From: Acidobacteriota bacterium | GTDB lineage: Bacteria > Acidobacteriota > Vicinamibacteria > Vicinamibacterales > 2-12-FULL-66-21 | Direction: 5' to 3' | Length of the DNA: 64,000 bases | Assembly: GCA_003222675.1 (NCBI GenBank) | Contig: QHWT01000061.1 | Location: 1-64,000 of the forward strand | In this document: one piece after another, positions 21,131 through 38,292 of the stretch | Numbering within the stretch: position 1 is the stretch's first letter | Layout of the letters: every line of letters starts with the position of its first letter | Position numbers and translations under genes: made by a program | Notes under the pieces: generated by a model | Seen by the model: the letters and a program-made list of their open reading frames with translations, nothing else | Database searches by the model: none | Told to the model about the DNA's origin: nothing

Positions 21131-22786
21131 TTACTGCTTCGCCCCGTAAAGGACGATCCAGTCATAGATGATTTGCGCTCTGCCCACCGAATCCGGCTGG
21201 AGGTAGCCGTGCATCGGTGCGCCGGGCTTCGTCATCTGGATGAGCCTGGAGTTCGGATCGCCCGGCGTGACGACCGACATGACACCCTGGTAGGTCGAGA
21301 AATCACGTCCGGCTGTCGGCTGCGATCCGCCATGGCACATGATGCAGTTGCCGTCCATGATCGTCTTGATTGACGAACCCCCGCTGGCGTTCGTCAGGTA
21401 CGTGATCGCCGGTGCCGGCGCCGTGACCGTCACCGTCGCGGTCTTCGTCACCGATCCCGTGGCGTTCCTCGCGATCAGCGTGTAGGTCATCGTCGCCGCT
21501 GGCGATACGGACTGCATTCCCGTCACGGGGACTGTCGAGCCGTTGAGCGTGACCGTCGCCGCATCGGTCGTGTTCCACGACAGCGTTGACGAGCTGCCGC
21601 TCAGAATGCTCGAGGGGGACGCCGTCAGCGAAGCCGTCGGCATCGGCACCGGCGGGGGCTGGACTGCATTCACCGTGACGGTTGCCGTCCTGGTGACGGA
21701 ACCGGTGGAGTTGGTCGCCACGAGCGTGTAGGTGGTCGTGCCGGCCGGAGAGTACGACTGCGTTCCGCTGGCCGCGACGGCACTCCCGTTCATCGTGACC
21801 GACGCGGCATTTGTTGTGTTCCACGTCAGCGTGGACGACTGACCGGCGGTGATGGTCGTCGGGTTCGCGGCAAGCGACGCCGTCGGCATCGGCACCGTCG
21901 GCGGAGCGGCGCTCACCGTCACCGTTGCCGTCTTCGTCGTGGATCCGGCGGCGCTGGTGGCCACCAGCGTATACGACGTCGTCGCCGCCGGCGAGAGTGT
22001 CTGCGTTCCGTCGAGCGAGACCGCATTTCCATTCAAGGTGACCGAGGTGGCATCGGTCGTGTTCCAGACCAGCGTGGAGGACTGGCCACTCTGGATCGAC
22101 GATGGCGTCGCCGTGAACGTCGCCGTCGGCATTGGGGCGGGAGCGGGTGTCGTGCCCGACACCGTGACCGTGGCGCTCGACGTCGCACGGTGGTCTTCAT
22201 GGACGGCGACCAGCGCGTAAGTCGTAGTCGCCGTGGGATACACGTTCTTCGATCCGCTGCTGGATACGGAGACACCATTCAGGTACACATTGTCGGCCCC
22301 GGCGGTGGTCCAGGTCAGCGTCGAATATTGGCCGGCCTGTATCGTCGTTGGACTTGCCGTGAGGCGCGCGCTAATCGAATCGTCGGTTGTACTGCCTGAC
22401 ACTGTCACCGTCGCGCTCGACGTTGCACGGTTGTAGTCGTGGACGGCGACCAAGGTGTGAGTCGTGGTGGCAGTAGGATAGACGTTCTTCGATCCGTTTC
22501 TGTCCACAGCGACGCCGTTGAGGTACACGTTTTCTGCTTCACTCGTGGTCCACGTCAGCGTCGAGTACTCTCCCTTTTGGATCGTCGTAGGACTCGCTGT
22601 CAGCTGCGCACGAATTCCACTAGACGATTCGTCCGATTCGTCGTTTACTCCGCTCGCAGGCGTTGAAACTGCGCTGCCAGGTTTCGAATCATTACTGCTC
22701 CCGCTCGGCGCGGTTGGCGTCCTGCTCTCACACGCCGTCAAGCTGATCGCCGCGAACCACAATACGGCTAATCCGACACGCTTCAT
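21131..22786 (-). CDS. Ig-like-repeat lipoprotein with C-terminal mono-haem cytochrome domain
   Basis: A 551-residue protein starting at ATG 22786 behind AAGGAGGG. A lipoprotein signal (AAISLTACES) is followed by five tandem Ig-like domains of about 75-85 residues from residue 58 to about 455, each with the pattern TASPTTIQxGxxSTLTW and a closing ATVTVS strand. The first two repeats are close copies (NVYLNGV, SKNVYPTATTT). The last 90 residues are a cytochrome c-like domain with one haem site CIMCH and a possible Met ligand in GAPMHGY. The design places a haem on a long stalk away from the membrane anchor. It lies on the same strand just downstream of the multihaem operon and could pass electrons at the cell surface. 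Confidence 0.85.
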   Translation of the reverse strand: MKRVGLAVLWFAAISLTACESRTPTAPSGSSNDSKPGSAVSTPASGVNDESDESSSGIRAQLTASPTTIQKGEYSTLTWTTSEAENVYLNGVAVDRNGSKNVYPTATTTHTLVAVHDYNRATSSATVTVSGSTTDDSISARLTASPTTIQAGQYSTLTWTTAGADNVYLNGVSVSSSGSKNVYPTATTTYALVAVHEDHRATSSATVTVSGTTPAPAPMPTATFTATPSSIQSGQSSTLVWNTTDATSVTLNGNAVSLDGTQTLSPAATTSYTLVATSAAGSTTKTATVTVSAAPPTVPMPTASLAANPTTITAGQSSTLTWNTTNAASVTMNGSAVAASGTQSYSPAGTTTYTLVATNSTGSVTRTATVTVNAVQPPPVPMPTASLTASPSSILSGSSSTLSWNTTDAATVTLNGSTVPVTGMQSVSPAATMTYTLIARNATGSVTKTATVTVTAPAPAITYLTNASGGSSIKTIMDGNCIMCHGGSQPTAGRDFSTYQGVMSVVTPGDPNSRLIQMTKPGAPMHGYLQPDSVGRAQIIYDWIVLYGAKQ

Positions 22787-22956
22787 TGGGACCCTCCTTG
22801 TTGGGCCGCGTCCAGTGATCGCCCACGATGCGACGTCGCGCGCTGGACGTGCCGCGCGTTTTTCCGAGATCAGCGCACAACCGCGTCAGACGTGACTGTG
22901 AAACCGCTGCGTCAACTGTCCGTTCGAGCGAGGCGCGCACAAAAAGCCCTATCGAC

Positions 22957-23070
22957 TCAACGCGTCTGAGTCAGGAACACCACTGTCTCGAGTCCAAAAA
23001 ATACGAGGAGGGTCCACCCGACGAAGGTGATCCCGCCGAGGATGTACCAGTGATACGGTCGGACGGTCAT
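22957..23070 (-). CDS. 37-residue single-span membrane peptide
   Basis: The minus strand encodes a 37-residue peptide starting MTVRPYHWYILGGITFVG and ending in a TGA. Residues 8-33 are one hydrophobic helix (YILGGITFVGWTLLVFFG). AAGG lies about ten bases before the ATG. Nothing else codes here, and the peptide has clean membrane-protein composition, so it is likely real. It lies between the 12-haem cytochrome gene and the Ig/haem lipoprotein gene on the same strand. Small single-span proteins often stabilise respiratory complexes, which would fit here, but no family was recognised. Confidence 0.6.
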   Translation of the reverse strand: MTVRPYHWYILGGITFVGWTLLVFFGLETVVFLTQTR

Positions 23071-23567
23071 CGGGCACCGTGCCTTTCAGCCTGCGACTGC
23101 GCTGACGCGCGGATCCCCGCGCCGGGTTCGAAGGGCGGACCCGAGCGGCACGCTCGCGTCTCAAACATCTACCGCTCCCCTCGATGTGACTGTGAAACTT
23201 CAGGCGATCAGCCTTCGCGCACCACTCTCACGAGCCATCGCAACTGATATGCCAGTTCATCTGCGTCATGCGACCCCTCGGGCGATACCGGCCAAACTGA
23301 TTCGCGCTCTGTCACTTGCGCCGGTAAAGCGAACGCGTCGCAACGCGCGCCCGACAACGACAGGCGTGGCAAGCTCGCGATCCGATCACGACAATCGATC
23401 CGAAAGAACAAAAATCGCCGCGTCGCGTGATGCTGTCGCACGAATCATGCGGACCCTGTGAAGACACCTCGTGCCTAACGTCGCGCCGGTGAACACACTT
23501 CACGGGTAACGTCGCGGACAAGATTGTCGCGCGACGATCGATCTGATCGTCTTCGTGCCGACGAACG
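23071..23567. other. Gap without a recognisable gene
   Basis: About 500 bases between the 12-haem cytochrome gene and the small membrane peptide. Short open frames exist on both strands, but none has family motifs, a convincing ribosome site or a signal peptide. I see no terminator-grade hairpin. Confidence 0.5.
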
Positions 23568-25364
23568 TCAGTAGGCGAGTGGGTTGTGTTCGATGCCATG
23601 ACAACTCAGGTAGCAGCGGCCGCTCCCGGGGCCGGTCGCCTCGAACCGAAGCAGCCCGCTCGCGTTTGGCGACACGACTCGCGTGTCGAAGTTGATCAGG
23701 CTGCTGTTGTTGGTCGTGTTGCCCTGCGTGGCGCTGACGCCGTGCGGGTCGTGGCACACCGAGCACGGCGCGGCGGCGTTCGTCAGGTGCCTGTTGTGCC
23801 GCTTGAATGAGACGTCGGAGATGATGCTCGTCCGACTGTGGCACTTGTAGCAGAGCGCGTAAGCGGCCGGTGACTCGACGTTGGTGCCGAGGTCCATGTC
23901 GTAGCGCGCCACCAGCAGGTGCTTGTAATTGGACCCGTGCGGCCCGGCCGGACCGCTTCCTGGCGTCGGCGCCTTCGGCCCGCTGTCGTTGTCGTGGCAG
24001 TCCGTGCAATAGATGATGCTGTTCGTGGTCCACGGCGCGATCAGGCTGGGTACGAACGTACTGCGGCCGGCGGCGGCGATCGGGTGATACGACGGGTTGG
24101 CCGGATCGAACTGCAGGCGCTTGTTGAACTGCGGCGCCTGACGATTCGTGTACGGCGGATACGGGCCGGCCTGCTGCGGCTTGTTCGCTGAGTCGCCGTG
24201 ACATTTGAAGCAGATTTCGTATTCGCGCACCGAAGGCGGCGCGCCGTTCGGGTCCACCCGCAGGCCATTGCTGTCGATGCCCCATACCCCCGCCAGCCGA
24301 CCGGACCCTTTCGGCGCGGTCGCCGCCTCAGCATCGCTCGCGTGCGGGTTGTGACAGTCGGCACACTCTGCGTGACGCGGGCTGGTCGCGCTGACCTCCG
24401 GCAACTTGAATCGGACCGATGACGGCGACTCTGAGGCGTCGTGCACCGATGGTGTGACGCTGTAGACCGGATGCCGGTAGATCTTGTTGAATTCAGCGCT
24501 GATGTTCGTCGATGCGACACCGCTCAGCCCGTGGCACGCGGCGCACGTCTTCTCCTCGACATCCTTCAGCATCCGGCTCGCGCCCGGCGCCGTGTGCGGC
24601 TTGTGGCAGCTCTCGCATCCGTTGCTCTCCACGGTCGTGTACCCGGTGTGCGCTCCCTGCAGCGCCGTGAACGGTCGCGTCGAGGTCCGATGCGAGCTCG
24701 GCGTCGTTGACCAGAACGTCTTCTGATGGCACGTGAGGCACAGTGCCGACTGCGCATTCGACTTGACCAGGAACTTCTGCGTGACCGAATCGAGGTCCTG
24801 CTGATGGGGGTCGTGGCAGCTGCGGCACTGCAGCTCGCCATGAGCGTCGAGCTTCACCGGGTCCCCCGCCGCCGGATTGACGATCTGTGGCCCGGTCACG
24901 GGCACGAAGGAGATCGGATGATCGTCCGAGAGGTTCGCACCGAGCGCGGTGCCGCCGACCAGCTGTGCGGCCGCGTTCAGTCCCGTCATGGCGATCGAGC
25001 CTCGCGACAGCGTTGCGCCCACCGCCACGGTCCCGTCGTGACAGCTCAGACACAGCTTCGCCGATCCCGTCGGCGCGCCCGGCGATGCGGCCATCGTCGT
25101 GCTGCTGTATGGCGTGTAGGTCACGCCCGACTGCGCCTGGTTCCAGAGCGGCGGCGCGGGACTCGCGTTGTGCGGCGCGTGACAGAAGATACAGATCTCG
25201 GTGGTGCCCGTCGCGCGCACGGGACCTGGCCCGCTCACCGACAGGTTGTGCTTGTTCGCGGGTGACGACACCGGCGCCTGCGCCTTCGTCGTTATCTGAA
25301 AGATGACGGCCATGACCAGGAAGAGCAGCGCAGGCGGCACGAGCCGCGCTGGCGCGTGCCTCAT
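23568..25364 (-). CDS. 12-haem c-type cytochrome
   Basis: A 598-residue exported cytochrome. The ATG at 25364 follows AGGAGG and overlaps the TGA of the NHL gene upstream (ATGA); the open frame extends further but lacks a site. A signal peptide runs to TTKAQA. Eleven CxxCH motifs (CIFCH, CLSCH, CRSCH, CLTCH, CESCH, CAACH, CADCH, CFKCH, CTDCH, CYKCH, CSVCH) are followed by a twelfth, atypical CX3CH (CYLSCH) close to the C-terminus. Several are followed by P-H, as in doubled CxxCH-type domains. Many isolated His residues can act as distal ligands. It is the last multihaem gene of the operon and is probably an extracellular or outer-membrane electron carrier. No enzymatic motif was seen. Confidence 0.92.
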   Translation of the reverse strand: MRHAPARLVPPALLFLVMAVIFQITTKAQAPVSSPANKHNLSVSGPGPVRATGTTEICIFCHAPHNASPAPPLWNQAQSGVTYTPYSSTTMAASPGAPTGSAKLCLSCHDGTVAVGATLSRGSIAMTGLNAAAQLVGGTALGANLSDDHPISFVPVTGPQIVNPAAGDPVKLDAHGELQCRSCHDPHQQDLDSVTQKFLVKSNAQSALCLTCHQKTFWSTTPSSHRTSTRPFTALQGAHTGYTTVESNGCESCHKPHTAPGASRMLKDVEEKTCAACHGLSGVASTNISAEFNKIYRHPVYSVTPSVHDASESPSSVRFKLPEVSATSPRHAECADCHNPHASDAEAATAPKGSGRLAGVWGIDSNGLRVDPNGAPPSVREYEICFKCHGDSANKPQQAGPYPPYTNRQAPQFNKRLQFDPANPSYHPIAAAGRSTFVPSLIAPWTTNSIIYCTDCHDNDSGPKAPTPGSGPAGPHGSNYKHLLVARYDMDLGTNVESPAAYALCYKCHSRTSIISDVSFKRHNRHLTNAAAPCSVCHDPHGVSATQGNTTNNSSLINFDTRVVSPNASGLLRFEATGPGSGRCYLSCHGIEHNPLAY

Positions 25365-26419
25365 CGCTCCTCCTTCAGGTACTCGAACACCTGTACGCGG
25401 CCATTCGAGGAGTCGGCGACATAGATGCGGTCGTCGACGATGGCAATACCGGTCGCGAGCCACAGTTCGCCGTCGCCGTGTCCCGGCTCCGCGAAACTGA
25501 GGAGGAAGCGCCCCTCGCGATCGAAGATCTGCACCACGTCCTGCAGTCCCTCGACGACATAGACGTGGCCGTCGCTGTCGACGGCGATGCCCTTGGGCCG
25601 ATTGAAGTCGCCCGATCCGTCGCCAAGCTGTCCGAACGAGGAGATGTAGCGTCCCTGCGGCGTGAAGATCTGGATCCGGAAGTTCATGCTGTCGGCGACG
25701 TACAGCTGCCCTTCCCGGTCGCGTGCGATGTTCGTCGGGTAATTGAACTGCCCGGGCTCGGCGCCGCGCGAGCCGAAAGAGCCGAGCACGCGTCCCTCGG
25801 GACTGAGGGTGACAATGCGGTGTCCCACCGTGTCGACGACATGCAGCCGATCGTCCGCCGCGACAATGCCGGTCGGCCGCTGTAGTCCGGCCTCAGCGCC
25901 TGTCGCCCACTGCCTCCGTCCGGCGCTGTTGAGGCAGATCACCCGGCCGCCAACGGAATCAGTGACAAAGAGGCGGCCGCCGAGCGCGGCCACGCCGATC
26001 AGCGATTCCCCCTCGACGTTGATCTTCGAGTAGCCCCCCTCGCGCACGTCATAGACGTGGACCGCGTGACCTGCCGTGTCCGCCACGTACAGACGCCCCA
26101 GCGGTCCCATCGCGATGCCGTAGGGCTGCGTCATCACCGGCGCGTCACCGCCGCCGGAAACGGCACGCCACACTTTGCGGAGGAACGAGCGCTTGACGGA
26201 GGTCTGCGGCGCAAGCGAGGTGAGGAAGCGGACACGCCCCTGCGCCGGCGGCTCGGGCCAGACGCGCTCCACACGTCGCACCGCGCGACGCTTGCCGGAC
26301 TGCGGCGCGGCGCGATCCTCCGCCGTGCTCTCGGCGCGCGGCGCCGCGGCGCCCGCCGCGATTGCCAACGCTGCGAGAGCAGCAGCCAACAGCCGGAGAT
26401 GCACGGAGCGGAGCGTCAC
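25361..26419 (-). CDS. NHL-repeat six-bladed beta-propeller, exported
   Basis: A 352-residue protein starting at GTG 26419; the GTGA overlaps the stop of the beta-barrel gene. A signal peptide (LAALAIAAGAAAPRAES) is followed by a Lys/Arg-rich linker and about six NHL repeats from residue 95 to the end, such as GRLYVADTAGHAVHVYD, GQLYVADSMNFRIQIF and DRIYVADSSNGRVQVF. NHL propellers bind proteins or glycans. Its stop overlaps the start of the 12-haem cytochrome gene, which ties it to cytochrome handling. It is a paralogue of the NHL protein at 30201-31265. A propeller protein (OscD) is part of the Geobacter OmcS-companion set as I recall it. Confidence 0.9.
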   Translation of the reverse strand: MTLRSVHLRLLAAALAALAIAAGAAAPRAESTAEDRAAPQSGKRRAVRRVERVWPEPPAQGRVRFLTSLAPQTSVKRSFLRKVWRAVSGGGDAPVMTQPYGIAMGPLGRLYVADTAGHAVHVYDVREGGYSKINVEGESLIGVAALGGRLFVTDSVGGRVICLNSAGRRQWATGAEAGLQRPTGIVAADDRLHVVDTVGHRIVTLSPEGRVLGSFGSRGAEPGQFNYPTNIARDREGQLYVADSMNFRIQIFTPQGRYISSFGQLGDGSGDFNRPKGIAVDSDGHVYVVEGLQDVVQIFDREGRFLLSFAEPGHGDGELWLATGIAIVDDRIYVADSSNGRVQVFEYLKEER

Positions 26420-28215
26420 GGCGTGAACCCGAACCTTCTGCCAACGCGGAACAGAATCTGGTTGCCGGTGAACGTCAGCGGGTCGATTCGACCGGCGGTG
26501 CTGAGCGAGAGGTTCGTATATCGGTGCTCGAGGCTGAAGGTGAACAGACGCACGCGGTAGTCGATCACGCCGCTCGTGTAGTAGCCGTCCTGATCGAGAC
26601 GCACGACCGTGGACGTCGTGTGCTCGCGCCGCGCCGTCACGGAGATATGGAGCGGACCGATCAGCGCGCCGTCGAAGACAAGGCCGACATACTCGTTCGC
26701 GTCGTCCGCGGCGGATGCACGGTTCTGGAATCGGCCGGCCGTCAATGCCAGACGCCGCTCGCGTGCGAGTTCGAACGCGGTCGACGCCGTCGCCTGCGTG
26801 TAGCGGGTCTGGAACAACAGCGGCGCGATACCGCGATCGATCGACGCGACTTCATAGCTGGCATCGACGGTGATGCGACGGGTCAGCGTGCTTCGGGCGC
26901 TCGCGTGCGTGCGCTCCTGCCACTGGTTGCCGAACGTCAGCAGTTCGTCGCGCGATCGCCCGCGCTCGTGCCCGACGCTCAGCTGGACGAAATGAAGAAT
27001 CTCTGTGGACGCGTCTAGGCGACCGTGCCACGTGCGCGACTCCCCCTCCACGCCTCGATCGCTCCGGTTCCAGCCGCGGCCCGCGTCGTAGCCCGCCGTC
27101 GCACGGATGAAACGGGACGTCAACGAGTACTCGGCGCCCCCCCGGGCGCCGCGCGTCAGCACGAGCACTCGTGTGTCGGCGAACTCCTGACCGCGCTCGC
27201 CATAGGTTCCGCTGCCGTGCAGCACGAGGCCGCCAAACGGGTGGTACCGCGTCCCTGCCGTCGCGAGCAGCGCGCTCGTGCCGCCGGCCGCGGAACGCTC
27301 GCGATCGAAGCCGACGCTCATGTCGGCTGAGAGGCCGGCCGCTGCCTGGTGGGCGAGCGTGGCCATGCCGTAATCGAGTGTGACTTCGCCGCCAGGCGGC
27401 GGGCGGTATCCGTCGACACCGATGTCGGTGAACTGGTCGGGCACGTCAAACCGCGAGAAGGTCGTCCGCCGGCCAGCGCGTGCCGTGCCCCACGTCCGGT
27501 CGGTGGCCTTTGCCACGAGCTCGTACCCCAGTTCGCGGTATTGCTGGCGGAATGCCTGCGAGAGGCCGGTGTCGAACCCGTTCCGCTGATAGCGCAGGGT
27601 GTTGCTCAGGCGAGGGCTCTCACGCGCCACCAGCGCCTGCATGGAGCTCTGACGCTGGAGCGCGGAGAGCGAGCCGGCGGCGACCTTCGCCGATGAGTCC
27701 TGGTAACTCAGCTCGACGCGCGGCAGCGATTTCGACGCGAGCTGCCAGTTCATGCCGAACTCGGATTTCGCGGTCTTCAGCTCCGGCGCCGAGCCGGCCG
27801 GCAACGTGAGACCGCCGCGGACGGTGCTCGACTCCGGATAGTTGGCCGACTCGCCGCCGAAGCCCCGCGACCCGCTGATCGATCCGCGAAACGGCCGCGT
27901 GGCGAAGAGGTTCGCCGTGCCTTTGAAGCCGGTCTGCTGCGAACTGCTGGCGTCGGGACCGAACGTCAGCGCGTTCCGGTTGAACGTCAGCTCGCCCGCG
28001 TAGGTAAGAAAGCGGGGATCCCACAGGATCGATCGGTAACCAAGCGTGTACGCCTGCGTGAAAGACGCATTGGTCGTCTGCTGATCGCCGGTCTCGTAGG
28101 TCGAGCGGCCGTAGCCCCAATCGACGGTGCCGTCCACACTCTGCGCGGCGGCGGCCGCCGGCATGAGCAGCAGCACGCAAGGCACGGACGCGCGAAGCAA
28201 CAGCACTTCGCTCAA
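26416..28215 (-). CDS. Large outer-membrane beta-barrel protein
   Basis: A 599-residue protein. The start is TTG 28215, whose TTGA overlaps the stop of the prolyl isomerase gene; a GTG at 28206 is an alternative. A signal peptide (VLLLMPAAAAAQS) is followed by long alternating amphipathic strands throughout (for example SFTQAYTLGYRSILWDPRF, ATAGYDAGRGWNRS), with an aromatic and Arg-rich C-terminal strand ending VGRRFGFTP. The size would suit a barrel of about 20 or more strands, comparable to MtrB-like porins that sheathe multihaem cytochromes, though I see no sequence motif proving that relation. It is placed between the chaperone and propeller genes of the cytochrome operon. It is the likely channel through the outer membrane. 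Confidence 0.85.
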   Translation of the reverse strand: MSEVLLLRASVPCVLLLMPAAAAAQSVDGTVDWGYGRSTYETGDQQTTNASFTQAYTLGYRSILWDPRFLTYAGELTFNRNALTFGPDASSSQQTGFKGTANLFATRPFRGSISGSRGFGGESANYPESSTVRGGLTLPAGSAPELKTAKSEFGMNWQLASKSLPRVELSYQDSSAKVAAGSLSALQRQSSMQALVARESPRLSNTLRYQRNGFDTGLSQAFRQQYRELGYELVAKATDRTWGTARAGRRTTFSRFDVPDQFTDIGVDGYRPPPGGEVTLDYGMATLAHQAAAGLSADMSVGFDRERSAAGGTSALLATAGTRYHPFGGLVLHGSGTYGERGQEFADTRVLVLTRGARGGAEYSLTSRFIRATAGYDAGRGWNRSDRGVEGESRTWHGRLDASTEILHFVQLSVGHERGRSRDELLTFGNQWQERTHASARSTLTRRITVDASYEVASIDRGIAPLLFQTRYTQATASTAFELARERRLALTAGRFQNRASAADDANEYVGLVFDGALIGPLHISVTARREHTTSTVVRLDQDGYYTSGVIDYRVRLFTFSLEHRYTNLSLSTAGRIDPLTFTGNQILFRVGRRFGFTP

Positions 28216-29330
28216 CCCGCAAACTTTCCGCCGGCCACGCGGCTCTCGACGATCTCGACCCGCGCCGCGGCGCGCAGCCGCTTCGACCAGTCGGCGCTCG
28301 CCTGGCTGCAGCGCGTCTGGGTGAGGTCTCGCACGATCGTCGCTCTCATGTCCGCGAGCGACTTCTGCGCGGCCGGACGGACCTCGATGAGCCGCAGCAG
28401 ATGAAAGCCGTAAATCGTCTGAATCACCGGCGTCACCTTGCCCGGCCCGAGACCCTTCAGCGCGCGCTCGAATTCCTCAATCAGCTGCCCTCGGTGGACG
28501 AAGCCCAGATCGCCGCCTTTGAGCTTGCTGGCATCGGTTGAGAATTCGCGTGCGAGCGCGTCGAACGACGCCCCGGCCGCTATCCGCCGTGCGACGCTGT
28601 CCGCCTTCTGCCGCGCACGGTCCCAGGCCGGCCGTCGCGCCGACGGATCGACGCCGATGGTGATGAGAGAAACGCGCACCTGCTCCGGCACCACGAAACG
28701 GCCGGTGTTCTCGCGGTAGTAAGCCGCCGCATCTGCCTCCGTGATCAGGCAGCGGGAGGTCACGACCTCGCCGTATGCCTTCTGGATCATGAGCGCGCGC
28801 AAGATGCTCGCGCGCAGCTGCGCCAGCGTCGCGCCCGAGGCGCGTCGCGCGCGCTCGAATGCCTCGGGATCGCGATAGGCCTTTCGCGCACGGTCGAGCG
28901 CCTGCTCGACTTCCATGGGCGGCACGCGGACGTCCAGTCGGACCGCGTCCTGGTACCGCAGTTCCTCGTCGATCAATCCGTCGAGCGCCTGCTTGCGCAG
29001 GTCCTGCAGCTTCTCGGGCTTGACGTTCTGGTGATACGAGCTGAGCGGGATCACCGTATTCAGCGCAGCCTCGAGATCGCCGGCGCCGATCGATGCACCG
29101 TTGACGCGCGCGACCACCGCCGGCTCCGTCGAAGGCGGCCGGCTCGACTGGTGCGCCGGCATCGGCGCGCTCGGCCGGTGCGACGGGACGGGCGCGAGCT
29201 GCTCCGCCAGCGGCACGCTGACGAAGAGCAGCAGCACGCCGATGTGAAGACCCACGACACGACGGGTTCGGGGAGGAGCCTTGCGCTCCTCCCCCTCCCT
29301 CGCTGTGCTGCCCGAAGTCCGCACCGTCAT
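28212..29330 (-). CDS. Parvulin-type (SurA/PpiC-like) periplasmic prolyl isomerase
   Basis: A 372-residue protein. ATG 29330 overlaps the TGA of the 4-haem cytochrome gene. One N-terminal hydrophobic segment (LHIGVLLLFVSVPLAEQL) exports or anchors it. Residues 75-205 resemble the SurA N-terminal chaperone region (VVARVNGASIGAGDLEAAL, ALDGLIDEELRYQDAVRL). Residues 215-325 form the PpiC rotamase domain (FDALAREFSTDASKLKGGDL, GFVHRGQLIEEF, YGFHLLRLIEVRP). SurA-like proteins help fold outer-membrane barrels and secreted proteins. The next gene encodes a barrel, and cytochromes flank both, so a dedicated chaperone role is likely. A prolyl isomerase chaperone (OscH) occurs in the Geobacter nanowire cluster. 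Confidence 0.92.
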   Translation of the reverse strand: MTVRTSGSTAREGEERKAPPRTRRVVGLHIGVLLLFVSVPLAEQLAPVPSHRPSAPMPAHQSSRPPSTEPAVVARVNGASIGAGDLEAALNTVIPLSSYHQNVKPEKLQDLRKQALDGLIDEELRYQDAVRLDVRVPPMEVEQALDRARKAYRDPEAFERARRASGATLAQLRASILRALMIQKAYGEVVTSRCLITEADAAAYYRENTGRFVVPEQVRVSLITIGVDPSARRPAWDRARQKADSVARRIAAGASFDALAREFSTDASKLKGGDLGFVHRGQLIEEFERALKGLGPGKVTPVIQTIYGFHLLRLIEVRPAAQKSLADMRATIVRDLTQTRCSQASADWSKRLRAAARVEIVESRVAGGKFAG

Positions 29331-30061
29331 TTGATGTGGCACGTGAGGCACATCGCGCTGCCGGCATTGGATTTCCGGAGGAAGAAGCCGCGGGCGTTGT
29401 TGTGCGGATTGTGGCAGCTCGCGCACTCCACGGTGGCCGTGGCGGTCGACGCGCCGTACAGCGGCAGCGGCTCGGTCGTGCCAACGGTGATCTTCGTGCC
29501 CGAGATCGCCTGCGTGACGAACTCAGTCGGCGTCGCAGCGCGGGCGGTCTCGTAGATGATGGTGATCGGATGGTCGTTGCGCAGATCGGTGCCGAGGAAC
29601 GGCGCGCCACCGTTGAGCACGTTGCTGGTGCCGGTGCCGCTCGCTCCGTAGGTCGCCTTCGCCGTCGCCTGCCGTGTGAACGCGACGCTTGCGGCGTGCG
29701 CCACGCCGGAGAGGTTAGCCAGCACGTCAACCGCTATGCTGCCGTCGTGGCAGCTCATACACGCGCCCGTCACGCCGCTCTGGATTTGCGCCGACGTCGG
29801 AGCGGCCGCGTCCATCGTCGAGCTCGCATACACCTGATACGTGCTCGTGGCGGTACTGCGGTTCCACAGCGGGACGGTCGGACTGCCCTCGTGTGGCGTG
29901 TGGCAGAAGACACACGTCTGCCCGTTGATGCTCGCGTCGGTGTTGCGAATGGCGGACCCCGCACTGAGGTCGTGCGGACCGAATGCCACGGTGCTCTGCG
30001 CCGCCGCGCTGCCGGCCCCGCCGAGCACGATCAGTGCGGCGCCGAATAATGCCCTTCTCAT
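29327..30061 (-). CDS. Tetrahaem c-type cytochrome
   Basis: A 244-residue exported cytochrome starting at ATG 30061, preceded by GGGAG. A signal peptide ends at GSAAAQS. Four haem motifs are present: CVFCH, CMSCH, CASCH and CLTCH. The arrangement CVFCHTPHEGSPTVPLWNR followed by ACMSCHDGS is closely similar to the first two sites of the 12-haem protein (CIFCHAPHNAS, LCLSCHDGT), so the two share a common module. The stop overlaps the prolyl isomerase start. Size and haem number would fit a repeating unit of an extracellular cytochrome chain or a periplasmic shuttle; which one is unknown. Confidence 0.92.
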   Translation of the reverse strand: MRRALFGAALIVLGGAGSAAAQSTVAFGPHDLSAGSAIRNTDASINGQTCVFCHTPHEGSPTVPLWNRSTATSTYQVYASSTMDAAAPTSAQIQSGVTGACMSCHDGSIAVDVLANLSGVAHAASVAFTRQATAKATYGASGTGTSNVLNGGAPFLGTDLRNDHPITIIYETARAATPTEFVTQAISGTKITVGTTEPLPLYGASTATATVECASCHNPHNNARGFFLRKSNAGSAMCLTCHIK

Positions 30062-30200
30062 AAGTTGCTCTCCCTTAGTTGATGAACTGGTACCACTCTC
30101 CTCGCCTGCTCGATCCGCGGCGCGGATCGCGCGGCGAGTGTCTCCCCACGTGCTGGCGGCGGACCGCGGCCCCCGATCATGCGAGCCGCGGCTCTCGCCA

Positions 30201-31265
30201 TTACTTCGGCCGCACATCCGCGCTCACGCGCTGGAACACCTGCACACGCGCATTCCCCTGATCGGCGATGTAGATGCGATCCTCGTCGTCCACGAAGAGG
30301 CCGGCGGGCAGCAGAAACTCTCCGGGCCCGGTGCCGGTTGCGCCCACGAACAGCAGGATCTGGCCGTCGGCGTCGAAGATCTGGAAGTTGTTGAACGACG
30401 TGTCGGCGACATAGATGTGCCCCTCGCTGTCCACGCCGACGCCCTTGGCGCGGTTCAGGTGTCCGGGTCCGTCCCCCTGGCTGCCGATGCTCTTCACGAA
30501 CGTGCCGGCGGCGTCGAACACCTGGATGCGAAAGTTGAGCGTGTCGGCGACGTACAGCCGCCCCTCCCGATCGACCGTCAGGTTCGTCGGGAAGTTGAAC
30601 TCGCCGTGTTCCACGCCGCGTTTGCCGATGGCGCGGATGAAGCGGCCGTCGGCGGCGGAGTAGCAGAGCACCTGGTGTTTCTTCGCGTCCGCGACATACA
30701 GCTGCCGCCGTTGGCGATCGATGGCGAGGCCGGACGGATTCTGCAGCTCGCCCTCGTGGCCGATCGCAATCGCCAGCTGCCCGTCGGGCGCGTAGCCGAA
30801 GACGCGCTTCAGCGTCGCGTCGGCGACAAACGCGGTGCCGCTATCGTCGACGGCGACGCCCACCGGCTTCGAAATCTTGCCGGCGCCGTTCTCGCCGATG
30901 AACCCGACCGATCGTGCCTTGGGATCGAAGACGAACACACGACGTGCCGCCGTGTCGGTGACGAACACCCGGCCGTCCCGCGCGGCGGCCACGCCGTACG
31001 GCTTCATGAGGCGATCGACGTGCTGCTCCTGGTCGGGACCGAGCAGCATCGATTTCCAACGGCCGTTCTTCTTCTTGAAGTCGTTGATGCCGTAGTAGGC
31101 CGTCACGAACCGGATGCGGGGCGGATCCGGAGGGAGCGGCCACACCAATGTCGGTGCGGCGGCCGCGGATGCCTTCTTCTTGTCGGATGCCCCGACGCCC
31201 ACGTGGGACGAGGCCAGAATCAGTCCCGCCATGAGCGCCATGGATGGGACGTTGCGCGCATTCAT
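30201..31265 (-). CDS. NHL-repeat six-bladed beta-propeller, exported
   Basis: A 354-residue protein starting at ATG 31265 with AAGG and GAG upstream. A signal peptide (MALMAGLILASSHVGVGA) is followed by PLPPDPPRIRFVTAYYG, a short N-terminal extension also seen in many cytochrome-associated propellers, then six NHL repeats (KPVGVAVDDSGTAFVADATL, GRLYVADTLNFRIQVFD, GHIYVADTSFNNFQIF, DRIYIADQGNARVQVFQ). It lies 17 bases after the 9-haem cytochrome gene and 139 bases before the tetrahaem gene. It is a paralogue of the propeller at 25361. Probable role: docking or shaping of secreted cytochromes, by analogy. Confidence 0.9.
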   Translation of the reverse strand: MNARNVPSMALMAGLILASSHVGVGASDKKKASAAAAPTLVWPLPPDPPRIRFVTAYYGINDFKKKNGRWKSMLLGPDQEQHVDRLMKPYGVAAARDGRVFVTDTAARRVFVFDPKARSVGFIGENGAGKISKPVGVAVDDSGTAFVADATLKRVFGYAPDGQLAIAIGHEGELQNPSGLAIDRQRRQLYVADAKKHQVLCYSAADGRFIRAIGKRGVEHGEFNFPTNLTVDREGRLYVADTLNFRIQVFDAAGTFVKSIGSQGDGPGHLNRAKGVGVDSEGHIYVADTSFNNFQIFDADGQILLFVGATGTGPGEFLLPAGLFVDDEDRIYIADQGNARVQVFQRVSADVRPK

Positions 31266-31282
31266 ATCGTCTCGACCCTTCC

Positions 31283-32173
31283 TCAAAACGTGTGGCACCG
31301 GACGCACAGCGAGCTGACGCCCGTCGCACCGAAGCGAAACAGCTTCGCTCCCATCGAGCCATGTGGGTTGTGGCAACTCGCGCATCGAAGTGTTCGTCCT
31401 TGTTCGTTAGGATCCGGCCGCCCGCCCACGGGATGCCCGATCGTCGGATGGCCCGACAGTAGCGACGGATCGAGAAGAATTCTCGGCCCGGTCCTCGCGA
31501 GGCGGTCGAGGTCCGCCGGCGGATGCCTGCCGAAGAGGCCCTGATCGATGACTGCGGCATCCACCGGCGCGTCGACGTGACAGGCGAGACAGACCGTGTT
31601 GCTGGCGGCGCGGAGCTGCGACGGATGCTCGGCGGCGTGCGGGTCGTGGCAGATCTGGCACGACGCGGCGGCCGGCGAGTGCACGTGGGCCTGCGCAAGC
31701 GCCTGCGCGATGTCGTCGTGACAGCTCGTGCAGGCGCGGTTGCCGTCGGCCGCCAGCTGAAACCGAAATGGCGAGCCATGCGGATCGTGACACGCCGTAC
31801 AATTGCCGGCCGCCACCGGCGCGTGCCGGTGCGGCTGCTTCAGTCGATCGCCGATCTCCTCGTGGCACGTGATGCACAACGTGGCGGTGTCGCGGCTCGA
31901 TGCGCCGGCTTTCAATCCCACGCGCCGACGCCCGGCGACGGTGCCGACAACGTGGCACGTGCTGCACCGGCCTGCGGCAACCGGGCCGTGCATCACACGA
32001 CGCTTCGTGACCTCGTCATGACAGGTGGTGCACGCCGCTCCATCGCCGCCGGTGACCGGCGGATGCTCTGCCGCCGCCGACGAGCGGGCGGCGAGGCGCG
32101 ATCCGTGCGCGCCGGGCAACGATTGAGCCGCCAGAGTGAGAGCGAAGAGCATGAGTCGTACGGTCCGGGGCAT
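31283..32173 (-). CDS. 9-haem c-type cytochrome
   Basis: A 296-residue exported cytochrome. ATG 32173 shares one base with the TAA of the thioredoxin/TPR gene (TAATG). The signal peptide covers about residues 1-24. Nine CxxCH motifs occur: CTTCH, CSTCH, CITCH, CTACH, CTSCH, CQICH, CLACH, CASCH and CVRCH. That is one haem per about 33 residues, a very dense packing. Spacers carry HxPVAAG and CHDPHG repeats like those of the 13-haem protein, so the two probably share ancestry (doubled CxxCH motif type). It is likely a periplasmic or outer-membrane wire. The last motif is at the extreme C-terminus. Confidence 0.93.
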   Translation of the reverse strand: MPRTVRLMLFALTLAAQSLPGAHGSRLAARSSAAAEHPPVTGGDGAACTTCHDEVTKRRVMHGPVAAGRCSTCHVVGTVAGRRRVGLKAGASSRDTATLCITCHEEIGDRLKQPHRHAPVAAGNCTACHDPHGSPFRFQLAADGNRACTSCHDDIAQALAQAHVHSPAAASCQICHDPHAAEHPSQLRAASNTVCLACHVDAPVDAAVIDQGLFGRHPPADLDRLARTGPRILLDPSLLSGHPTIGHPVGGRPDPNEQGRTLRCASCHNPHGSMGAKLFRFGATGVSSLCVRCHTF

Positions 32174-33237
32174 TACCGCCTCCCCGGAGCGACCTCCCGG
32201 CGATATGCGGTCATGGCCTTTGCAGCCGCGCCGGCCGGAGACGGGTCCATGGCTCCGTACGATCGCGGGTCGACGCCGCTGATTTCTTTCGCGCGATCGA
32301 AGGCCGTCATGGCGCGCCGATCGTCGCCCGCGGCATGCAGCAGGTAGCCGAGATACGCCGCCGTAGTCGAATCGCCGCCCTTCGCGATCAGCTCTTCGAG
32401 CGCGGCCTGCGCCGGGACGATCTGGCCCGTGAGCGCGGCGAGCCGCGCGCGCTCGCGCTGAACGCCCACGTGGGCGGCATCCAGGGCCGTGGCGCGATCC
32501 AGCAGCTCGCGCGCCCCGCGAAAATCATTCGAGTCGAGCGCCAGCGCGGCGAGCTCTACGAGCGGATCCGGAAACGTCGCGTCGGCCTTGACCGCTTCCT
32601 CGAAGCTGCTTCGCGCCGGAGCCTCGTGCCCCTGCGAGAGCTGCAGCCGTCCGAGCTGCACGCGGCGGAGCGCCGCGGGGGCGGCTTTCAAGGCCGCAGC
32701 CGGTGCTGGCTTTCGCGCAATGCCGGCAATGGCGTCGATCGCATCGAACAGTTCCTCACGCTGCTCGTGCGAGTAGCCGAACAGAAAATACGAAAGCCGT
32801 CCGTTGGCATCGACGACGGCGGTCGAGGGAATCGTGACGACGCCGTAGGCGTGAAACAGCTCGAGACCGCGGTCGACGAACACCGGCACGCGCAGGTTGA
32901 GCCGCTGCACGCGATCGTGCAGCCGAGTCTTCTCTGCTTCGTCGAGGTCGAAGCGTTCGACGCTCACCGCGGCGACCGCGACACCGTGCGCCGCCATCTC
33001 TGGCGCGACGTCGTCGAGCCGCCGCAGCTCCTCGATCGATCGCTCGCTCCACCCGGCCCAGAAGAGCACGACCAGGCCGCGGTGGCCCGCCAGCTGCTTG
33101 AGCGATCGCTCGCTGCCCGCCAGGTCGCGCACCACAGGAAGGGGCGCCGCCGCGCCGATCGCCGGACGCTGACCGGCGGCGGTGGAGGCCCCGACAAGCA
33201 GGAGCGCGGCGGCGAAGCTGGAGATCGCGAGGCGCAT
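32173..33237 (-). CDS. Thioredoxin-fold (TlpA-like) protein lacking the CxxC, with TPR domain
   Basis: A 354-residue exported protein starting at ATG 33237 behind GGAGGTGAG. A signal peptide (AAALLLVGASTAAGQ) leads into a TlpA/AhpC-like thioredoxin domain at about residues 27-175. At the active-site position the sequence is FWAGWSERSIEEL, so both catalytic cysteines are absent (WSERS at about 63-67), while the cis-Pro loop VVTIPSTAVVDANG is kept. A TPR-like helical half follows from about 190 to 335. It may act as a binding scaffold rather than a disulfide reductase in cytochrome maturation or assembly. It lies between the 13- and 9-haem cytochrome genes. Confidence 0.87.
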   Translation of the reverse strand: MRLAISSFAAALLLVGASTAAGQRPAIGAAAPLPVVRDLAGSERSLKQLAGHRGLVVLFWAGWSERSIEELRRLDDVAPEMAAHGVAVAAVSVERFDLDEAEKTRLHDRVQRLNLRVPVFVDRGLELFHAYGVVTIPSTAVVDANGRLSYFLFGYSHEQREELFDAIDAIAGIARKPAPAAALKAAPAALRRVQLGRLQLSQGHEAPARSSFEEAVKADATFPDPLVELAALALDSNDFRGARELLDRATALDAAHVGVQRERARLAALTGQIVPAQAALEELIAKGGDSTTAAYLGYLLHAAGDDRRAMTAFDRAKEISGVDPRSYGAMDPSPAGAAAKAMTAYRREVAPGRR

Positions 33238-33242
33238 GGATC

Positions 33243-34496
33243 TCACCTCCCCGCCGTTCCAACCGGGCCCGTCGGTTTCCGGCTGTACTTCGCCGGCAGA
33301 TGACAGCCCGGCGTGCAGCGGCCGCCGTCGGCGGTCTGTTGAAATCCAACGGGCAGCTGCCACTCGCCAAATGGCACACTTTCACGCAGGTGCTTCGGGA
33401 TGCTGCTCGAGTGCGCCTCGTGGCACGCGCGACAGGTGCGCCCCTTTTCCACACGATTCACGTGCAGGAAGTGCAGGTTGCGGTCGCCGTCGCGGAAACC
33501 GGTCACCGTCGTCGAGCGCTCCACCTTGGCCATGTCGGGCTCATGGCACATGAAGCACAGCTCGTAATTCTTCGGATCGAACGGACTGTAGAACTTTTCC
33601 GGGTAGTCCTTCTTCAGCAGGCGGAAATGCTCCGAATCGTGCGGCAGATGGCAGCCGACGCAGTCCTGCTGACGGATGGGTCCGTGGAGATCGTTGTGGG
33701 TCTCGAGCCACGACTTGATGTTCTGCACGTTGCCGCTCGGCGCGTCCACCTCGCGGTCGTGGCAGGAGAGGCACAACTTCATCGAGGTGCCCTTCAACTG
33801 CTTGCCGAGATCGCTGGCGTGCGGGTCATGGCAGTTGAGGCACTGGCGATCCACCGACATGGCCTCGTGCTGCACGCGCGCGGTCACCAGTTCCTTTCTC
33901 AGGGTCTTGTGACACGCCAGGCACTGCTCGGCGCCGTCGTTGCGAATCTGGTATTTCGTGGGCGACGCGTGCGGGTTGTGGCACGTGGCGCAGTCTTCTT
34001 TGGCGGGCGCGTGCGCGAACCGCTGCTCCGCAAGCCTCGCCTTCATGTCGACGTGGCACTTCTCGCAGAGCTCCGAGCCGAAGACGCGCACCAGCTGGGG
34101 CTCGTCGGTGCCATGCGGGTCGTGACACGTGAGGCACTCGCCGGCCGCGACGGGTCCGTGCACGAACTTGTCGGCCGGCTTCACCATCTGATGGCATGCG
34201 GTGCACTGCTTCACCGTGAACATGTGAGCGTCACGTTCTGTCGGCACGTGACAGGTCGCGCAGTCAGTCGACTTGGGATGGACAACCGTGTGCTTGGTGA
34301 TCGATGCATGGCATTGCAGGCAAGTGCCGGCCGCCGCTTTCGCCGGCGCCACCGCATGTGGAGCGGGGGCGACCGCGCGAGCGGGCGCAGCCTGCGGCAG
34401 GCCTGATGCGCGGACGACCGCCGTAATGAGCGCGATCGAGACACACGCAGCCAAGCCAAGCGCAAACGAATTGGAAGAGCCGGCACTCATCCTCAT
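33243..34496 (-). CDS. 13-haem c-type cytochrome
   Basis: A 417-residue exported cytochrome and the first gene of the operon. The signal peptide covers about residues 1-31. Twelve CxxCH sites (CLQCH, CATCH, CTACH, CLTCH, CEKCH, CATCH, CLACH, CLNCH, CLSCH, CVGCH, CFMCH, CRACH) are followed by a thirteenth CX3CH site (CTPGCH) near the C-terminus. CHDPHG and CHNPHAS pairs recur as in decahaem and doubled-CxxCH families. The gene ends five bases before the next start. About 270 bases of non-coding DNA upstream (34497-34766) must hold the operon promoter, but I could not place it with confidence. Probable role: envelope electron transfer. Confidence 0.93.
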   Translation of the reverse strand: MRMSAGSSNSFALGLAACVSIALITAVVRASGLPQAAPARAVAPAPHAVAPAKAAAGTCLQCHASITKHTVVHPKSTDCATCHVPTERDAHMFTVKQCTACHQMVKPADKFVHGPVAAGECLTCHDPHGTDEPQLVRVFGSELCEKCHVDMKARLAEQRFAHAPAKEDCATCHNPHASPTKYQIRNDGAEQCLACHKTLRKELVTARVQHEAMSVDRQCLNCHDPHASDLGKQLKGTSMKLCLSCHDREVDAPSGNVQNIKSWLETHNDLHGPIRQQDCVGCHLPHDSEHFRLLKKDYPEKFYSPFDPKNYELCFMCHEPDMAKVERSTTVTGFRDGDRNLHFLHVNRVEKGRTCRACHEAHSSSIPKHLRESVPFGEWQLPVGFQQTADGGRCTPGCHLPAKYSRKPTGPVGTAGR

Positions 34497-34766: not shown

Positions 34767-35372
34767 CTACCTGCTGCCTGACGCAGGCGCGCTGGTCGCC
34801 GTCGCCGCCGCCGGCGCTGCAACCAGGTTTACTTGAACCGTGATTTCGTCTTTCACGCCGACACCCAGATATGTCGGCTCTGGAATCTGGAACGCAGAGA
34901 TCTGTAGCGGAAACGTGGCCTGGACACGATACGCCTTGCCGTCCTGCTGTACGTCCGCGGTGCCGCTGACGTCGTGGTGCTGGCCGTGCAGCGTCATCGT
35001 GCCCTTGAACGTGGTCTTGCCCGACAGCTTTTCCACTCTGATGTTCTCCAGCTTCGCCGCTGCGAACTCCGGTCCCTTCTGCACTTCGAGATAGTTGTTG
35101 CGCAGGTGCCGATTGCGCAGGCTGATGCCGGTGTCGAGATTGATGAGATCGACGATGAGCGCGCCCTTCATCGTGCCGCCGCTCGCCGGCGTCACGCTGC
35201 CACTGAGCGCCGTTGTCTTCGCTTCAAAACTGCCACCTATGGTCATAGGACACACGACCGTCACGTCGCCGCCCGTAATCCGTAACGCGTCCTGCGCCCG
35301 TGCTGAGAGCGGAAGAGCAGCCACACACCCCATCAGGGCAAACGTTACCCGTGCAAACCCGTTGATACGCAT
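34767..35372 (-). CDS. YceI-family exported lipocalin-like protein
   Basis: A 201-residue protein starting at ATG 35372 with AGGAG upstream. A signal peptide (GCVAALPLSARAQ) is followed by a full YceI domain at about residues 28-175: GGDVTVVCPMTIGGSFEAKT, LDTGISLRNRHLRNNYLEVQ and TMTLHGQHHDVSGTADV. YceI proteins bind polyisoprenoids or quinone-like lipids in the periplasm, which would fit a quinone-linked electron pathway next door, although this link is inference. An Ala/Thr-rich tail ends the protein. It lies just upstream of the cytochrome operon on the same strand but is separated from it by 270 bases. Confidence 0.88.
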   Translation of the reverse strand: MRINGFARVTFALMGCVAALPLSARAQDALRITGGDVTVVCPMTIGGSFEAKTTALSGSVTPASGGTMKGALIVDLINLDTGISLRNRHLRNNYLEVQKGPEFAAAKLENIRVEKLSGKTTFKGTMTLHGQHHDVSGTADVQQDGKAYRVQATFPLQISAFQIPEPTYLGVGVKDEITVQVNLVAAPAAATATSAPASGSR

Positions 35373-36915: not shown

Positions 36916-38292
36916 TCAGACGCCGGTGAGGTGTTCGACCTCACCGGTACTGTCGCCGATCTGTTCCGCGTGCACGCCCATGCGATCGAGCAGCGTCAGG
37001 TAGAGATTGGTCATGGGAGTGTCCTTCGGATAGACGACGTGCCGGCCGAGACGCAAGTCGCCGCCGCCGCCGACGATCAGGACGGGCAGGTCGTCATGCG
37101 TGTGCCGGTTTCCGTCGCTCAGGCCGCTGCCATAGACGAGCACCGAGTGATCGAGGAGCGTGCCGTCGCCGTCGGGCGTATCTTTCAGCTTCTTGACGAA
37201 GGCGGCGAACAACTCCATGTGCATCGAGTTCACCTTGGTGACCTTCTCGATCCATTCAGGATTCCCGCGATGGTGCGTCAAGGGGTGATGTGGATCGGGA
37301 ACGCCGATTTCCGGATACGTCCGCAGGCTGCCTTCGCGCCCCATCATCATCGTGACCACGCGGGTCGAGTCTGTCTGAAACGCGACGATCTGCAGATCGA
37401 ACATCAGGTTCACGTAGTCGGCGTACTGAACCGGAATCCCCGTCGGCTTGTCGATCGTCGGCGTGAGGCCACTGAGGTCCCGCTCGGCCCTCTCGATGCG
37501 CTGCTCGATCTCGCGAATCGACGAAAGGTATTCATCGAGCTTCCGCCGATCGGACGGGCCGAGATCGGCCATGAGCTCGGTCGTGCGCGCGCTGACGAGG
37601 TCGAGGATGCTCCTGCGGTGAACGAGACGCCGCGTTCGCGTTTCCTGCGGGACGCTCGTGTCGATATCGCCAAACAGCCGTTCGAATACGAGGCGCGGGT
37701 TCGTTTCCGGAGGCATGGGCGTCGCGGGCCCGCGCCAGGCGAGGCTATTGGTGTACGCGCACGAGTAGCCGGAGTCGCAGTTGCCGATCGTCCGCGAGTC
37801 GTCGCATCCGAGTTCGAGGGACGGAAAGCGCGTCTGGCCCGCCAGCTGTTGCGCCGCGATCTGATCGACGGAAATGCCGTTCTGAATATCGGCGCCGGCG
37901 GTTTTCCGCGGGTGCACGCCCGTCAGGTACGAAGCAGCCGCACGTGCATGATCGCCAGGGCCATCGCCCAGCGCCGCGCCGTTCTTATGCGCGAGACCGG
38001 ACAGGACCAGCGTCTCTTCGCGAAATGGTTCGAGCGGCTTGAGGATCCGCGAGAACTCGAAGCCAGAGCCGTCGCCCGTCGGCGTCCAGTCTGCCATCGT
38101 CACGCCATTCGGAACGTACGTGAAGGCAAGGCGAAGCGGCTGCCTGCCCGCGCGCGCCCGGGCGGACCCTGCTCCGCCGAAGCGGACTGCCGCGAAGGCG
38201 GGCGTCATCGCATCGAGCGCTGGCAGCGCGATAGCCGCTCCGATGCCTCTCAGAAACGTGCGACGTGGCAGATGTCGGCGCGTGGCGATCAT
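36916..38292 (-). CDS. DUF1552 secreted protein (Tat-exported)
   Basis: A 458-residue protein of the DUF1552 family. It begins with a Tat signal (RRHLPRRTFLRGIGAAIALPAL). The body carries the family hallmarks YVPNGVTMADWTP, GDHARAAASYLTGVHP, NGISVDQIAAQQL and GNRHTHDDLPVLIVGGGG. DUF1552 proteins resemble the DUF1501 sulfatase-like group and are nearly always encoded beside DUF1592/DUF1588 proteins, as here: its ATG overlaps the stop of that gene (ATGA). The function is unknown. Both are thought to act outside the cytoplasm on polymers or in redox processes. Confidence 0.93.
   Translation of the reverse strand: MIATRRHLPRRTFLRGIGAAIALPALDAMTPAFAAVRFGGAGSARARAGRQPLRLAFTYVPNGVTMADWTPTGDGSGFEFSRILKPLEPFREETLVLSGLAHKNGAALGDGPGDHARAAASYLTGVHPRKTAGADIQNGISVDQIAAQQLAGQTRFPSLELGCDDSRTIGNCDSGYSCAYTNSLAWRGPATPMPPETNPRLVFERLFGDIDTSVPQETRTRRLVHRRSILDLVSARTTELMADLGPSDRRKLDEYLSSIREIEQRIERAERDLSGLTPTIDKPTGIPVQYADYVNLMFDLQIVAFQTDSTRVVTMMMGREGSLRTYPEIGVPDPHHPLTHHRGNPEWIEKVTKVNSMHMELFAAFVKKLKDTPDGDGTLLDHSVLVYGSGLSDGNRHTHDDLPVLIVGGGGDLRLGRHVVYPKDTPMTNLYLTLLDRMGVHAEQIGDSTGEVEHLTGV

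Follow-up and report, generated by a model that had tools for sequence, protein, structure and literature searches.

OmcE polymerises outside the cell, with one interfacial haem ligated by a histidine of the adjacent subunit, according to PMC12954529 and PMC9473688; possible tip proteins are not considered in the latter, the paper on the OmcZ structure. In Geobacter, the omcS companion (osc) cluster has been proposed to act in the folding, secretion, and morphology of OmcS (Shen et al., 2025, as described in PMC13194489). The undecaheme electron transfer (Uet) system of Tenderiales and Gallionella comprises a tetrahaem cytochrome (UetA), an isomerase (UetB), a barrel (UetC), trihaem cytochromes (UetDEG), NHL proteins (UetHI), and an undecahaem cytochrome, UetJ (PMC10734462, citing Eddie et al., 2022). 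The attachment and charging of extracellular cytochrome filaments at the outer membrane is a standing question, on which the nine-gene operon described here bears. It lies on the minus strand, from 34496 down to 23568, of a 64,000-nucleotide stretch of an Acidobacteriota genome (assembly GCA_003222675.1, contig QHWT01000061.1, positions 1 to 64,000; hereafter the window). The likely products of the operon are an electron conduit across the outer membrane, an OmcE-type cytochrome filament connected to it, and the factors that assemble them.

Nine exported proteins are encoded in the order 13-haem cytochrome (c1), redoxin-TPR protein, nine-haem cytochrome (c3), NHL propeller, tetrahaem cytochrome (c5), SurA/PpiC isomerase, outer-membrane barrel, second NHL propeller, and 12-haem cytochrome (c9) (Table 1). 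Stop and start codons overlap between the majority of neighbors (c5–isomerase–barrel–second propeller–c9, and redoxin–c3), and these coupled overlaps support co-expression; promoter and terminator scans of the DNA returned only chance-level results. Every product carries a signal-like or N-terminal hydrophobic segment, and no lipobox was seen in the operon cytochromes. Domains scoring above the Pfam cut-offs are NHL, PPIC-type PPIase, SurA_N, AhpC/TSA, TPR, and paired CXXCH. The four cytochromes together hold 36 CXXCH and two CX3CH motifs, of which the CX3CH motifs stand one at the end of c1 and one at the end of c9, and the total reaches 38 haem motifs only if both are included. With that proviso, the initial annotation of this DNA, made from the sequence alone, had counted the motifs correctly (13, 9, 4, and 12). 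Its two propellers and SurA/PpiC-like isomerase were borne out by the domain scores, its barrel of about 600 residues by a 28-strand model, and its Cys-less thioredoxin/TPR protein by a sequence with no Cys at all; the near-gapless arrangement on one strand likewise held. Its broader proposal, an extracellular conduit and nanowire system, is well supported by the OmcE homologue, the MtrA-like nine-haem cytochrome, the MtrB-like barrel, and the conserved gene order described below.

Table 1. Features of the operon and of its downstream flank, in operon order (window coordinates).
Feature	Coordinates	Strand	Basis
c1, 13-haem exported cytochrome with DmsE/MtrA-like repeats	33243..34496	-	Best solved match MtrA 6r2q_A
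Cys-less AhpC/TSA (TlpA/ResA-like) redoxin with TPR	32173..33237	-	Pfam, sequence
c3, nine-haem MtrA-like cytochrome; may form the wire within the barrel	31283..32173	-	Family profile against 6r2q_A
Exported NHL beta-propeller 1; its gene directly precedes that of c5	30201..31265	-	Pfam NHL
c5, OmcE-type tetrahaem putative filament subunit, 244 aa	29327..30061	-	Homology to PDB 7tfs/9yuq, conserved His
SurA_N and PpiC rotamase chaperone/isomerase, N-terminal hydrophobic segment	28212..29330	-	Pfam; ATG overlaps c5 stop codon
Outer-membrane beta-barrel, 599 aa, MtrB-like fold	26416..28215	-	Model, Foldseek, structural alignment
Exported NHL beta-propeller 2; its gene directly precedes that of c9	25361..26419	-	Pfam NHL
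c9, UetJ-like 12-haem cytochrome; residues ~27-215 form an OmcE-like tetrahaem module, followed by an eight-haem C-terminal part	23568..25364	-	Motif count, structure-database match, tree
Possible membrane peptide, 37 aa (open reading frame)	22957..23070	-	Weak match in one congener
Lipoprotein: Ig-like repeat modules, single C-terminal CXXCH	21131..22786	-	Present in L003/L004

The OmcE-type cytochrome, the MtrA-like cytochromes, and the barrel

The tetrahaem cytochrome c5 has four CXXCH motifs and, judged by its sequence, is a full-length homologue of OmcE. Its residues 6-244 align with 7-232 of OmcE (PDB 7tfs; E 2.6e-32), and a second tetrahaem structure, PDB 9yuq, is matched over the full length (E 1.5e-26). 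Exactly eight histidines are conserved at 95–100% across 41 free homologues, namely those of the four CXXCH motifs and four distal ones, a number that fits four haems with four distal ligands; the conserved ligand positions are 54, 105, 217, and 242, and 30, 57, 164, and 220. TIGR03507 was matched by c5 only below its cut-off, and no surface lipoprotein of the OmcA/MtrC family was found in the operon. It is conceivable that c5 and c9 act instead as surface monomers or oligomers, in the manner of terminal cytochromes such as UetA and UetJ, within a plain porin-cytochrome complex that forms no filament. PMC10734462 presents Uet as a porin-multihaem complex and mentions no filament, and the window genome contains a single free OmcE-type gene. 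However, c5 is homologous along its whole length to a filament-forming protein and keeps every ligand histidine, the four distal ones included; we regard the filament-free arrangement as unlikely.

The conduit itself is suggested by c3 and the barrel. For c3, which has nine CXXCH motifs, the family profile (A4) finds MtrA (6r2q_A) as its best solved match, at E 2.7e-21; the molecule name given for 6r2q_A in the match table is apparently mislabelled, the entry being the Mtr complex. MtrA is also the best solved match of c1 (12 CXXCH and one CX3CH; E 1.2e-15). The barrel model has 28 predicted strands, with a predicted local distance difference test (pLDDT) score of 81.6, and a Foldseek search with it places MtrB (6r2q_B) first at E 5.5e-11, ahead of a next-best match at 1.7e-8. 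Structural re-alignment with MtrB spans 499 residues, the longest alignment in the table, at a root-mean-square deviation of 6.6 Å; its Z of 16.1 is no higher than those of TonB receptors. No Pfam or NCBIfam family matched the barrel, the MtrB/PioB family included, and its profile found no relative among PDB sequences. By their best matches, then, the c3 family is MtrA-like and the modeled barrel MtrB-like, large, and plug-less, and two independent comparisons, one by sequence profile and one by structural model, lead to the same complex. The initial annotation had raised the prospect of a barrel too small to hold a cytochrome; the predicted strand number and the likeness to MtrB indicate otherwise.

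A barrel of this kind could instead be a secretion channel for OmcE-type subunits, as has been proposed for OscEFG in Geobacter, the MtrA-like cytochromes then serving as periplasmic stores or carriers. The barrel gene lies directly between the OmcE and isomerase genes and the second NHL/c9 pair, a secretory role is among those proposed for the osc genes (PMC13194489), and in some relatives that retain OmcE- and c9-type genes the barrel shows little sequence similarity. Yet the closest solved fold, both by E-value and by coverage, is that of MtrB, a cytochrome holder, and an MtrA-like gene is a recurrent neighbor. Secretion in place of conduction seems doubtful to us, and both barrel roles could coexist.

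The MtrA-like cytochromes also raise the question of a role outside extracellular electron transfer, for example in a periplasmic redox enzyme of the dimethyl sulfoxide or nitrite type equipped with an outer-membrane module. DmsE-family profiles match c1 and c3, both below cut-off (c3 at E 9.8e-23), and no NapC-family quinol dehydrogenase was found in the genome. But the operon holds no molybdopterin or other catalytic subunit, and the OmcE homology and MtrB-like barrel favor electron export or uptake, making such a role very improbable.

The 12-haem fusion cytochrome, conserved gene order, and a proposed mechanism

The last product of the operon is c9, with 11 CXXCH and one CX3CH. Its N-terminal residues match OmcE (7tfs) at E 3.5e-22 alone and 8.2e-38 with a profile, and all eight ligand histidines of this module are conserved in 28 homologues; c9 is an OmcE-like tetrahaem module fused to an eight-haem part. 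The CX3CH motif is probably real, given its conservation in 96% of the 28 homologues. In a tree of 79 modules, whose deep branches are poorly supported, fused modules separate from free ones and from both PDB sequences. A separate four-haem gene adjoins a seven-haem gene in several genomes (L063, L064, L072, and L108), and these split modules nest within the fused group, which indicates secondary splitting of the fusion. An apparent shortage of distal histidines in c9 (11 invariant for 12 haems, with a ligand possibly borrowed from OmcE) was considered and dropped, four further histidines being 93–96% conserved in 28 sequences. Searches for c9 in viral contigs and in plasmids found nothing.

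Rather than being confined to this genome, as the initial annotation had allowed, the core order MtrA-like–NHL–OmcE–(isomerase)–barrel-sized open reading frame–NHL–c9 recurs in Acidobacteriota, Bacteroidota (Ignavibacteria), and Myxococcota (Anaeromyxobacter-like), and a planctomycete has a divergent version of it. The window genome belongs to the same taxonomic order as metagenome-assembled genomes (MAGs) labelled acidobacteria gp6 (L003 corresponding to G449:C30). Orthologues of c1 adjoin the core in an ignavibacterial genome (L009, 39%) and an acidobacterial one (L011, 60%). OmcE-type matches occur in 54 of 396 Acidobacteriota genomes; for c9, matches number 26 among 195 genomes in the phylum of Anaeromyxobacter and 4 among 247 in that of Ignavibacteria. 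The barrel profile matched eight of the 396 acidobacterial genomes, each time on a contig with OmcE/c9 genes. Among 100 relatives, seven match (the window genome counted): the genus itself is represented, as are scattered members of the order, and none of ten other family members is, which points to a patchy locus shaped by loss or transfer. Each locus tends to hold a matched pair of one free and one fused OmcE module, each following its own NHL gene; in 38 c9-type genes, chosen by matches to these same genes, an NHL gene lies immediately upstream in 30, and an OmcE-type gene no more than 9 kb upstream likewise in 30.

Variants of the cluster were also recorded. In four Acidobacteriota loci (L060-L062 and L065, in genomes G158, G166, G190, and G065), OmcE-type clusters that retain only a 6- to 7-haem part of c9 adjoin cytochromes of about 1030-1070 residues with 42-43 CXXCH motifs. 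OmcE-type matches number about ten in another acidobacterial genome (L007/L054; G005:C155 and other contigs of G005/G460), and several of these are five-haem variants.

From these parts a mechanism may be proposed. Periplasmic electrons would enter c1 and c3, and c3, lodged inside the 28-strand barrel, would hand them on at the cell surface to c9, whose eight-haem part would receive them. Its OmcE-like module would serve as the first subunit of a bis-His tetrahaem wire, which c5 subunits would extend by stacking upon it. Escort of the barrel or the cytochromes across the periplasm may fall to the SurA/PpiC protein, and each propeller, encoded directly before one OmcE-module gene, probably aids the folding or export of that cytochrome or shapes the wire. 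In the redoxin-TPR protein, neither catalytic Cys position holds a Cys in five of five aligned homologues, Ignavibacteria included (WSxxS / WxxDS); this absence argues for a structural rather than a catalytic role, and the protein could be a scaffold for c1. Electron flow could serve either respiratory export or electron uptake. A bolder reading, which we hold to be less likely than not, is that c9/UetJ-type proteins are the missing base piece of nanowires: an OmcE-like subunit permanently fused to an eight-haem cytochrome docked on an MtrAB-like barrel, from which the filament would grow and to which it would be wired. Free OmcE and the fused module would then be partners, one propeller to each, in several phyla. 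A compact operon combining a wire-type subunit, an MtrA/MtrB-like conduit, and a half-wire, half-multihaem protein makes filament attachment directly testable. It would also give a common soil lineage (acidobacteria gp6) the means to build nanowires, and the module is patchily spread over several phyla.

Several observations weigh against a filament-bearing conduit of this form. The role of c9 is the weakest link: AlphaFold2 run on c9 with eight homologues reached a pLDDT of only 28.5, and we make no structural claim for this protein. The fusion is not essential everywhere, since certain genomes carry just the eight-haem portion of c9 or encode the two halves separately, and the isomerase is missing from some clusters (Ignavibacteria). 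The NapC/NirT-type quinol dehydrogenase not found in the genome counts here as well. Even in Geobacter, what OmcE/OmcS filaments do physiologically is contested (PMC11077965; PMC13194489).

Possible electron supply and flanking genes

Paired-CXXCH domains in the window genome are almost confined to the operon, one further ten-haem gene lying on contig 123. That gene occurs in an unusual combination with a NuoF-like protein and an Fe-S protein with cyclic-nucleotide-binding domains (C123 3675-9823; L074). On contigs C98 and C37, NrfD genes have C7-type cytochrome genes near them, as would fit quinol oxidoreductases of the ACIII kind, which could supply electrons to the periplasm.

The initial annotation had appended a membrane peptide and a haem-bearing lipoprotein to the operon. 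Both are present, but the lipoprotein lies ~780 bp downstream and was not found in most other clusters; as an operon member it was rejected for want of conservation, and it is probably not part of the machine. The peptide is uncertain as a real gene, its match (50% over 28 residues, downstream of c9) coming from one congener only (L119). In a related gp6 genome (L118:6825-10539, the same as L003), the cluster is followed by the Ig-like/one-haem lipoprotein in two copies. In a gp6 MAG (L004:4714-6532) the barrel is apparently frameshifted, the lipoprotein follows directly, and propeller 2 and the 12-haem gene are missing, an arrangement that appears to be deletion, decay, or misassembly. A gene for a YceI-family exported protein (34767-35372) closely precedes the operon and has the same orientation. 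Further on, a DUF1592/1588/1587/1585/1595 (planctomycete-type cytochrome) protein (38289-40850) precedes the gene for an exported-looking protein of 458 residues (36916-38292), a pair that is probably unrelated to the operon.

Comparison with described systems

By gene type, the operon resembles Uet as published: a tetrahaem cytochrome, an isomerase, a barrel, two NHL proteins, and an 11- or 12-haem cytochrome with doubled CXXCH share one cluster. It lacks any three-haem gene corresponding to UetDEG and has instead two MtrA-like cytochromes, of 9 and 13 haems, and a redoxin-TPR protein devoid of Cys. The operon thus appears to work like Uet but is not assigned to it, since the trihaems are missing and the comparison is by gene type and description. 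The architecture that the initial annotation took to be the operon's own, with two propellers, must be given up, Uet already having these parts; the thioredoxin-TPR protein, which it had also thought distinctive, is indeed absent from the published Uet list but occurs in Ignavibacteria as well. Four points appear new: the tetrahaem cytochrome is of the OmcE kind, the 12-haem protein contains a fused OmcE module, an MtrA/MtrB-like pair is present, and the gene order is broadly conserved. Priority for these four points is uncertain: no statement of them was found in the literature searched, which left out the primary Uet, OmcE, and Osc reports.

The osc cluster, likened here by its description in PMC13194489, also joins a wire cytochrome to a prolyl-isomerase chaperone, channel-like proteins, and a propeller. 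The analogy with OmcS and osc drawn in the initial annotation holds for these parts but is indirect: the wire here is OmcE-type rather than the six-haem OmcS, no six-haem cytochrome was found in the operon, the solved-structure matches are OmcE-type and not OmcS, and the operon has two propellers and a fused 12-haem cytochrome. The likeness to MtrAB(C) of Shewanella (6r2q) lies in the match of the c3 profile to MtrA and of the barrel model to MtrB; the barrel differs in reaching its 28 predicted strands without a sequence match to MtrB family models, and in place of an MtrC/OmcA-type surface lipoprotein, c9 and the OmcE-type cytochrome would form the surface part. With the OmcE (GSU0618) filament of Geobacter sulfurreducens (7tfs) and with 9yuq, c5, here a putative filament subunit, shares an end-to-end alignment, four CXXCH motifs, and four distal histidines. 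The N-terminal module of c9 can be aligned with both as well, and differs in being fused with eight further haems.

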